Below are positions 5,400 to 15,221 of a stretch of 15,221 bases of DNA, piece by piece. Position numbers and translations under genes: made by a program. The stretch is from Desulfuromonas sp. SDB (GTDB lineage Bacteria > SDB-A): the NCBI GenBank assembly GCA_001412365.1, contig LKUE01000044.1, forward strand, positions 1-15,221, read 5' to 3'. The stretch's first letter is position 1; each line of letters begins with the position of its first letter. A model generated the notes under the pieces. It was not told where the DNA came from. It searched no databases and saw only the letters and a program-made list of their open reading frames with translations.

Positions 5400-5627
5400 T
5401 TATGCTTCATCAGCTCTGAACACTAATTTTCTGTTTTCATTCTTATTTAGCTGGAGAAGTTTGTTTTTGATTTTTTCATTCAAATCCAGATATCTCTCCA
5501 TATAATTGCAATTAAAACATACATAAGTTAATCCCCTGACCCAGATTGCTCCCGGGATTTTCCCTACTGTTTCCTCATAAAAGTAAATATCAGCGGAACT
5601 GCATTTGGGGCATTTTCCTGATTTCAT
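5400..5627 (-). CDS. Small zinc-ribbon protein
   Basis: The only gene confidently read on the - strand. It encodes 75 residues with a single zinc ribbon: C6-x2-C9 (CPKC) and C37-x2-C40 (CFNC) separated by a beta-rich stretch (IYFYEETVGKIPGAIWVRGLTYV), then a charged, helical, Lys/Asn-rich tail. The ATG at 5627 (reading leftward) has an AGAGGA ribosome site at usual spacing. Such single-ribbon proteins are usually cytosolic binding or adaptor proteins, and no enzymatic role can be assigned. It is divergent from another zinc-ribbon gene at 5764 with about 136 bp between, including two symmetric DNA elements, so the two may share control. Confidence 0.8.
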   Translation of the reverse strand: MKSGKCPKCSSADIYFYEETVGKIPGAIWVRGLTYVCFNCNYMERYLDLNEKIKNKLLQLNKNENRKLVFRADEA

Positions 5628-13484: not shown

Positions 13485-13563
13485 ACTAATTTCTTTTGGT
13501 AATAACCACTGATATTGTAGGATAATAACTTGTTATAGTTATTCAGATTAGCTTGGTTAATAG

Positions 13564-14373
13564 ATGAAAACAAAAATTCCAAATTCTCCTTATCCTGAAC
13601 TACCTGGGGTATTGGACCATTTAACCCAAGGAGTTAAAGAAATCCTCGGTGATAATCTGGTGGGATCACTGGCTACCGGGGGATTTGATCTGGACAGCGA
13701 TGTTGATTTTCTAACTGTTATTCTTCATGATTTAACTGACAATGATGTCCAAAATCTCCAGGAAATGCACCGCAACATCCACGACCAGAACTGCTATCCG
13801 GCTAAACATCTGGAAGGTTCCTATATTCCCAAAGATTTCCTGGCTAATGAGAAGACGATGATAAATGAAAAGATCTGGTATCTGGACAACGGCAGCCGGA
13901 CTCTGGAGCTTTCCAATCATGACAACCGCTGGCATGTCCACTGGGTGCTGAGGGAGAGGGGTATCCGCCTGTGGGGGCCTGACTCTAAGACGTTGTGCAG
14001 ACCCATTCCCAAATCAATACTGGATAAAGATGTAATAAGAGTAATGAATCAGGTGACCGATGGTTTTAGAGAGGAGTTAAGTCAACCTCTGGGTTTCTAC
14101 AATTCCCGGTTCGGGCAGTCCTTTGTCATCCTCACCATGTGCCGGATACTGCAGACTTTAGCTTCCGGTACCATTGAGTCAAAACTAGCCGGAGTGAACT
14201 GGGCTAAAAAAAATTTGGATGATAAATGGATTGAACTGATTGACCAAGCCTGGCAGGAACGGGAGGGAGTCCGGTTCTGCATTAAGATAAAACAACGGGC
14301 TGAACAGTCCCTCCTGGAGAAGACCTATAAATTCATTGAATATGCCCAACAATGTAGTAGATTAGAGAATTAA
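13564..14373 (+). CDS. AadA-like aminoglycoside adenylyltransferase-domain protein
   Basis: A 269-residue nucleotidyltransferase, close to the 262 or so residues of AadA. The polymerase-beta-type active site is G34-S35 with D46 and D48 (GSLATGGFDLDSDVDF), the two metal-binding aspartates. The C-terminal part matches the all-helical AadA C-terminal domain (PF13427): SFVILTMCRILQTLASGTIESKLAGVNWAKKNL, with the CR and GxxxSK signatures, and then WIELIDQAW. Family members adenylylate aminoglycosides such as streptomycin or spectinomycin; distant ones have no proved resistance role, and this one is divergent enough that the drug should not be assumed. No clear Shine-Dalgarno precedes ATG 13564. 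A 7-bp inverted repeat (AATAACT at 13524-13530, AGTTATT at 13537-13543) lies shortly upstream. Confidence 0.85.
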   Translation: MKTKIPNSPYPELPGVLDHLTQGVKEILGDNLVGSLATGGFDLDSDVDFLTVILHDLTDNDVQNLQEMHRNIHDQNCYPAKHLEGSYIPKDFLANEKTMINEKIWYLDNGSRTLELSNHDNRWHVHWVLRERGIRLWGPDSKTLCRPIPKSILDKDVIRVMNQVTDGFREELSQPLGFYNSRFGQSFVILTMCRILQTLASGTIESKLAGVNWAKKNLDDKWIELIDQAWQEREGVRFCIKIKQRAEQSLLEKTYKFIEYAQQCSRLEN

Positions 14374-14453
14374 TTAACAAGAATAACCTTTTGAATAACT
14401 TATCCTAAACAAATTAAATATTCCTATTATTCGAACAAACAATTTATATTAAT

Positions 14454-14507
14454 AATGTCAAGTATTTTGCGCAAAATACTTGACATTTATTTTTTTCTTC
14501 TTATAAT
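14454..14507 (+). promoter_or_regulatory. Consensus promoter with 34-bp palindromic operator
   Basis: A perfect 34-bp palindrome spans 14454-14487, centred on GCGC at 14469-14472, with arms of 17 bp and no mismatch. Its right arm contains TTGACA (14480-14485), the exact -35 consensus; TATAAT, the exact -10 consensus, follows at 14502-14507 with a 16-bp spacer. Transcription would begin near 14514, just ahead of the AAGGAGG ribosome site (14517-14523). A repressor bound to the palindrome would block RNA polymerase. The same hairpin followed by the T-rich 14488-14501 could also terminate transcription of the gene ending at 14373. Confidence 0.82.
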
Positions 14508-14533
14508 TATTAATAGAAGGAGGTTAAAAAACA

Positions 14534-15221
14534 ATGAAAGTAGTAGAAAAAATTGAAAGAAAAATTAATAAGATTAATGAAAATACTCCTTTTAAATATC
14601 AGCAGTTAGAACTTGACCGATCTGAATATTATGCTGCTGCTAAAGCCATTGAAAGATTGATAAAAAAAGGTTTGGTTAAGAGAGTATCAAATGGAATCTT
14701 CTATAAACCTAAAAAATCTATTTTTGGTGAATTGAAACCAGGAGAACATGAATTATTGGAGCAGTATCTTTTTCAAGATGGAAAGCGTATTGCCTATGTA
14801 ACTGGAATTTCATTGTATAACCGTCTGATGATGACCACTCAGGTACCTAGCATTCTCAAAGTAGCTAGCAAAGTAAAAAGAATTACAGTTAAAATTGGTG
14901 TAACCCAGATAAAGCCAGTTAAAAGTTATGTGGATGTAACTGATGAAAACTATTATTTACTTGAGATTTTAGATGCAATAAAAGATTTTAAAAATATACC
15001 TGATTTAGATGTAAAACTTGTAATAACTAGATTACTGGATATTATTAATGGGTTTTCTAAAAAGGATATTTCAAGAATGATTAAGTATTCTTTACAATAT
15101 CCTCCAAGAGTAAGAGCATTACTGGGGGCACTACTGGAATCCTCGGGAAAAGAATATAATATTGAGATCTTAAAAATCAATTTAAATCCTCTGACTAAAT
15201 TCAAATTAGGTATTAAAAAAA
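14534..15221 (+). CDS. DUF6088/AbiEi-like antitoxin (3' end outside the window)
   Basis: The frame runs from ATG 14534 to the window edge, with 229 residues visible and no stop. A perfect AAGGAGG (14517-14523) lies 10 nt before the start. The N-terminal part is a winged-helix-like domain (KYQQLELDRSEYYAAAKAIERLIKKGLVKRVSNGIFYKP), with the 'L.KKGL.KRV..G.FY.P' wing typical of DUF6088 and AbiEi antitoxins. The middle has AYVTGISLYNRL and ITVKIGVTQIKPV, and the end has PPRVRALLGALLES, the usual closing motif of DUF6088 proteins, so little of the gene should be missing. Such proteins neutralise an AbiEii-type nucleotidyltransferase toxin encoded immediately downstream and repress their own promoter. 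Family recognition is from memory; the partner is outside the window. Confidence 0.85.
   Translation, partial: MKVVEKIERKINKINENTPFKYQQLELDRSEYYAAAKAIERLIKKGLVKRVSNGIFYKPKKSIFGELKPGEHELLEQYLFQDGKRIAYVTGISLYNRLMMTTQVPSILKVASKVKRITVKIGVTQIKPVKSYVDVTDENYYLLEILDAIKDFKNIPDLDVKLVITRLLDIINGFSKKDISRMIKYSLQYPPRVRALLGALLESSGKEYNIEILKINLNPLTKFKLGIKK

Follow-up and report, generated by a model that had tools for sequence, protein, structure and literature searches.

AbiEi antitoxins of the type IV AbiE systems neutralise the AbiEii toxins without binding them. Members of this family also act on DNA: AbiEi of Streptococcus agalactiae represses its own promoter via the inverted repeats TGTTGCTTTTA-N27-TAAAAGCAACA, with the -35 box inside IR1 (PMC3985639), and acts on these repeats as two monomers (PMC7319586). 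The streptococcal operator spans 49 bp (11 bp-N27-11 bp) and has been described as a pair of 23-bp repeats with 3 bp in between; comparable repeats at further abiE loci are noted in the same 2014 publication (PMC3985639). Autorepression has also been reported for Rv2827c, whose operator consists of four 23-bp repeats arranged in two pairs with 13-bp gaps (PMC7319586), while AbiEi of the element ICESsuHN105 from Streptococcus suis binds palindromes in the promoter and represses the operon, and additionally binds oriT and the SezAT promoter (PMC11062541).

Here we analyze a stretch of 15,221 nucleotides from Desulfuromonas sp. SDB (contig LKUE01000044.1, hereafter "the window"), at the end of which a perfect palindrome overlaps the promoter of a gene encoding an AbiEi-like protein (Table 1). 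The original prediction for this locus took it as known that AbiEi proteins autoregulate through inverted repeats, in agreement with the work on S. agalactiae (PMC3985639) and Rv2827c (PMC7319586). From comparisons of sequences we conclude that the palindrome is very probably the operator at which an antitoxin of the AbiEi type shuts off the antitoxin-toxin operon that encodes it.

Table 1. Features of the putative abiE promoter region in the window
Feature	Position	Strand	Basis
Perfect 34-bp palindrome, putative AbiEi operator	14454..14487	.	sequence; conservation in relatives
Conserved 30-bp operator core TGTCAAG-N16-CTTGACA	14456..14485	.	identical 30-mer at 4 AbiEi loci; geometry in relatives
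Left half-site TGTCAAG	14456..14462	+	position frequencies
Right half-site CTTGACA, with the -35 box inside	14479..14485	+	sequence, position frequencies
-35 hexamer TTGACA	14480..14485	+	promoter match
-10 hexamer TATAAT	14502..14507	+	promoter match; start 17 bp past operator core
Ribosome binding site AAGGAGG	14517..14523	+	sequence
DUF6088/AbiEi antitoxin gene, 229 codons seen, truncated by contig end	14534..15221	+	profiles, fold
Helix 3 codons (residues 29-44), presumed DNA-recognition helix	14618..14665	+	AlphaFold2 model

The palindrome and the promoter

The arms of the palindrome, AATGTCAAGTATTTTGC (14454-14470) and GCAAAATACTTGACATT (14471-14487), are 100% complementary and abut without a loop. 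No other perfect palindrome in the window is as long (34 bp), whereas the maximum in 200 dinucleotide shuffles of the window was 20 bp; no second copy is present in 13800-15221. The TTGACA and TATAAT hexamers are separated by a spacer of 16 bp and form the sole 12/12 promoter match within 13500-15221, with TATAAT occupying the position where the relatives from Bacteroidota carry a -7 box, TAnnTTTG. The original prediction was therefore exact with respect to the mismatch-free palindrome over the -35 box and to the two consensus hexamers with their spacing, and its view that such an arrangement is unlikely to arise by chance agrees with the shuffles. Its notion of a single full-length palindrome is accurate for the window copy and has to be narrowed otherwise, since it is the 30-bp core that is conserved. 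Perfect complementarity throughout was found in 19 of 142 operators, so that the perfect centre TTGCGCAA, which makes the window copy 34 bp long, is largely optional.

The locus thus possesses inverted repeats in the promoter, as do the AbiEi operators described above, but instead of 23-bp repeats with a span of ~49 bp or more (the streptococcal and mycobacterial arrangement) it carries one palindrome of 30-34 bp. This spacing, unlike that of the AbiEi operators studied so far, is a point against the operator function. We infer that two AbiEi monomers, each with its N-terminal winged helix, would sit on the two TGTCAAG half-sites, whose separation of 23 bp corresponds to about two helical turns and so places both almost on one side of the double helix. 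Since the right half-site holds the -35 hexamer, the bound protein would exclude sigma and close the promoter, and a drop in the antitoxin level would expose a strong promoter. The tight self-repression and the rapid induction upon loss of antitoxin put forward in the original prediction likewise have the status of predictions.

The antitoxin and its neighbors

The gene that follows the palindrome had been read as encoding a DUF6088/AbiEi-like antitoxin, and profile and structure comparisons support this assignment. The product of the open reading frame (ORF) belongs to DUF6088 (PF19570; 39.1 bits, cut-off 25) and matches the PADLOC AbiEi profile with an E-value of 5e-47 over residues 1-205 of 229. 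The AlphaFold2 model, based on a 36-row alignment (mean pLDDT 89.9), comprises helices 3-12, 22-25 and 29-44 and a wing (49-57), followed by a C-terminal domain, and it is this combination of an N-terminal winged helix with a C-terminal domain that characterizes the AbiEi fold, which the window protein is thus predicted to adopt. Over its full length the model matched two PDB entries best, in each case with both domains spanned: 6Y8Q, the AbiEi of S. agalactiae, with Z 8.8 for 178 residues, and 1ZEL, Rv2827c, for which VIA-align gave Z 9.7 and rmsd 5.4 for 219 residues. These AbiEi structures were retrieved by the fold search and not by a profile search of PDB sequences.

The 3' end of the ORF is open and the expected toxin gene is out of sight because the contig (C44, 15221 bases) ends there. 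In the relatives the attachment to a toxin operon is evident, as an AbiEii-like ORF follows in 124 of the 135 having enough downstream sequence, and the toxin of the window copy would lie correspondingly off the contig. The SDB genome encodes AbiEii elsewhere, on contigs C270, C40 and C224 (loci L252, L253 and L254); none of these three genes looks like the partner of the window antitoxin because each is preceded by another antitoxin-like gene or its end, and they were rejected as candidates. That no partner gene is visible, either on the contig or among these three, counts against the operator function. Contig C224 contains also two further small gene pairs resembling toxin-antitoxin modules. 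On the other side of the palindrome, the ORF 13564-14373 resembles aminoglycoside nucleotidyltransferases (AadA_C, PF13427), but its scores fall far short of those that NCBIfam demands for the named resistance enzymes.

Conservation of the palindrome

Relatives were gathered by protein or family profile from genomes of Bacteroidia, Cytophagales and Flavobacteriales, together with plasmid and phage matches. Counting the window, there were 66 close relatives, and 61 of them carry a 30-bp palindrome of 7+16+7 geometry within 150 bp upstream, in some cases with one decayed arm. Independent scoring detected perfect 9-bp arms in 20 of 27 close relatives (1% in shuffles) and in 25 of 48 more distant, canonical DUF6088 genes (3% in shuffles); the palindromes of the latter mostly carry another half-site (TGTCGCAAAT or a variant of it), span 29 bp and adjoin the start codon. 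Changes of the half-site are paired across the arms (TGTCCAG/CTGGACA, TGTCCAT/ATGGACA, TGTTGTG/CACAACA, TGTAACG/CGTTACA). The plasmid relatives (29-46% identity) exhibit TGTCAAG/CTTGACA with the 30-bp outer span just 5' of most DUF6088 genes, and six plasmid records have AbiEii annotated downstream.

The reciprocal scan used DNA only and was blind to protein, with the core TGTCAAG-N16-CTTGACA, partly specified inside, as the query against one genome per species (257 Gb). It reported at least 119 loci, compared to ~0.2 expected by base count for the 20-base pattern in 257 Gb. AbiEi ORFs beside the palindromes were called with an HMM built from ten relatives, and one was located directly downstream (within 300 nt) at 96 of the 119 loci listed. 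The AbiEi-adjoining palindromes among the matches listed come from Bacteroidota, Planctomycetota, Acidobacteria, Cyanobacteria, Desulfobacterota, Chlamydiae and Alphaproteobacteria. Four AbiEi loci (L145, L183, L238 and L247) reproduce the 30-mer of the window letter for letter, and three of them (L183, L238 and L247, all Bacteroidota) encode the proteins nearest to that of the window among the matches listed (64-66% identity), which suggests that the abiE cassette as a whole, operator included, has likely moved horizontally. The search thus finds the palindrome strongly conserved 5' of DUF6088 genes in other genomes, the check proposed in the original prediction, which a lack of such conservation would have refuted, and as the conservation holds whether one starts from the DNA or from the protein, the connection between the palindrome and the DUF6088/AbiEi protein goes beyond the analogy on which it had been based.

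The remaining 23 of the 119 palindromes listed have no adjoining AbiEi gene, which is another point against the operator function. Some of them lie at the edge of a locus or contig, as in L170, where the sequence runs into the start of an AbiEi gene, or are remnants (L188), while several look like true orphans and a few adjoin SLFN_AlbA_2 genes. In the viral contigs, a loose variable-gap pattern matched mostly chance or unrelated sites, none adjoining an AbiEi ORF, and an alignment-based search gave no match; the window protein retrieved no relative from the genome contig collection. With respect to copy number, the core occurs just once in 34 of 38 genomes, and the window genome has one exact site plus a site with one mismatch and no inner symmetry, fewer than in the reversed-pattern control. 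One site per genome points to self-regulation rather than to a regulon.

Half-site classes

The palindromes of the TGTCAAG class (A) have the -7 box TAnnTTTG 16-19 bp past the core in 42 of 48 exact matches, so that the right half-site corresponds to the -33/-35 region. Class B (TGTCCAG) lacks TTGACA, and its -7 box is found 7-8 bp past the core (27 of 28), about 9 bp closer than in class A. With its sigma-70 type TATAAT 17 bp past the core, the window agrees with the TGTCAAG class. The classes differ also in the protein: at residue 40 of helix 3, Asn is encoded by every one of the 32 TGTCCAG operons, and either Glu or Ser by 99 of 102 TGTCAAG operons; residues 32 and 36, which share this side of the helix, differ as well. 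The two classes split only once or twice on a tree made without the winged helix, with two A/B changes and one to two independent pairs, hence descent alone could explain the match between residues and half-sites, and many columns outside helix 3 score equally high in covariation with the half-site class.

A recognition code in helix 3 is accordingly put forward as a hypothesis only: Glu/Ser 40 would read TGTCAAG, Asn 40 TGTCCAG, Tyr TGTAACG and Gly TGTTGTG. It forms part of a broader scenario, which we regard as rather unlikely, where DUF6088/AbiEi proteins would be mutually orthogonal self-repressors, with helix 3 (residues 32, 36 and 40) picking the half-site and with some sites controlling also defence genes nearby, e.g. 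SLFN_AlbA_2. If neighboring defence genes do share the sites, loss of the antitoxin would turn on more than its own toxin.

Several loci (L162:394-469, L157:4986-5226, L158:5608-5706 and L141:5887-6018) combine palindromes of the TGTCAAG and TGTCCAG types at a distance of 16-181 bp, and in L162 and L157 both types are 5' of a TGTCCAG-class AbiEi gene; it is possible that such mixed pairs represent double control or the relic of an older abiE operon. L184:6682-6756 contains a tandem pair of TGTCAAG-type palindromes, 15 bp apart, 5' of one AbiEi gene. Palindromes without their own AbiEi gene were found 130-220 bp 5' of SLFN_AlbA_2 (Schlafen-like) genes (L174:3543-3572 and 5465-5494; L227:3873-3902), and another operator-like one, also without its own AbiEi gene, near a broken SLFN_AlbA_2 gene in L141. 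A second palindrome type, TGTCAAGTCTTTT...AAAAGACTTGACA, mostly 30-40 bp long, occurs in viral sequences (L066:13567-13604, L119:1041-1078, L126:2643-2680) and in L160:319-348, with no accompanying AbiEi gene.

Alternative explanations

The palindrome could act in RNA, either as an intrinsic terminator of the upstream AadA-like gene, which ends at 14373, or as a 5'-UTR structure. Folded as RNA it reaches -15.8 kcal/mol (z -5.6), it is followed by a T-rich stretch, and it is the sole terminator-like match of the region. However, the palindrome precedes the -10 box and hence falls outside the operon transcript, which argues for a role at the level of DNA rather than as a hairpin in RNA, and the stem holds just 3 G-C pairs. 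In the relatives the centre is often non-complementary (pairs 14-17 and 15-16 in 43-60% of operators), the T tract after the palindrome is not conserved whereas the 30-bp spacing and the distance to the promoter are, and the upstream genes vary among loci. On the grounds of its position and of the centre complementarity, which is not kept, we rejected the hairpin and give it very little credence.

Orphan sites, and the class A or B palindromes that precede SLFN_AlbA_2 genes in L174 and L227 or lie near the broken one in L141, would be expected if the operator belonged to another regulator, e.g. an XRE-type protein or an SLFN_AlbA_2 protein with a C-terminal HTH, and AbiEi were merely one of its targets. 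This is highly improbable as well, considering that AbiEi is the one constant neighbor across several phyla, that most genomes have a single site, and that the half-site class tracks the AbiEi subfamily (Asn 40 in 32/32, Glu/Ser 40 in 99/102). The persistence of orphan palindromes at loci without abiE, together with the frequent location of abiE on plasmids, is also compatible with a scar that recombination or insertion of a mobile abiE cassette left behind and that has no regulatory role, but the palindrome is present in one copy, on the promoter side only and at a fixed distance from the -7 box, and a scar does not explain the shift of class B by about 9 bp toward that box; we find this explanation hardly credible. 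The preferred interpretation remains an operator that AbiEi itself would bind.

Comparison with known AbiE systems

DUF6088, a large and unstudied antitoxin family, gains a defined putative operator that is recognizable from DNA alone in several phyla. In the open-access literature searched we found no paper on a DUF6088 operator, and the compact 30-bp form appears not to have been described before; AbiEi operators, as predicted here, would exist in this form besides the 49-bp streptococcal one. The operator is also fused to the promoter in two manners, as the TTGACA-bearing half-site doubles as the -35 box and the TGTCCAG operator is instead placed about 9 bp nearer to the -7 box. With half-site classes that occur naturally, both the DNA recognition by AbiEi and the cross-talk of neighboring AbiE systems become directly testable.

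The AbiE system of S. agalactiae shares with the window locus the N-terminal winged-helix antitoxin, half-sites that end with TGT...ACA and have T/A runs inside, the overlap of one half-site with the -35 box, and a toxin gene downstream (seen in the relatives of the window, whose own would be off the contig). It differs in that the window palindrome spans 30 bp rather than 49, with half-site centres 23 bp and not about 42 bp apart, and in the half-site itself (TGTCAAG versus TGTTGCT). Rv2827c-Rv2826c from M. tuberculosis (1ZEL) resembles the window locus in the two-domain fold, predicted for the window antitoxin, and in the inverted repeats at the promoter, through which autorepression has been shown for Rv2827c, but has four 23-bp repeats in contrast to the single 30-bp palindrome. 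The AbiE system of ICESsuHN105 likewise has a promoter palindrome, with binding and repression demonstrated in S. suis and predicted for the window; while its AbiEi has the extra targets oriT and SezAT, the window genome has one exact site only. In our best reading the window operator would represent a compact variant of the known AbiE autoregulation, with the antitoxin predicted to bind it.
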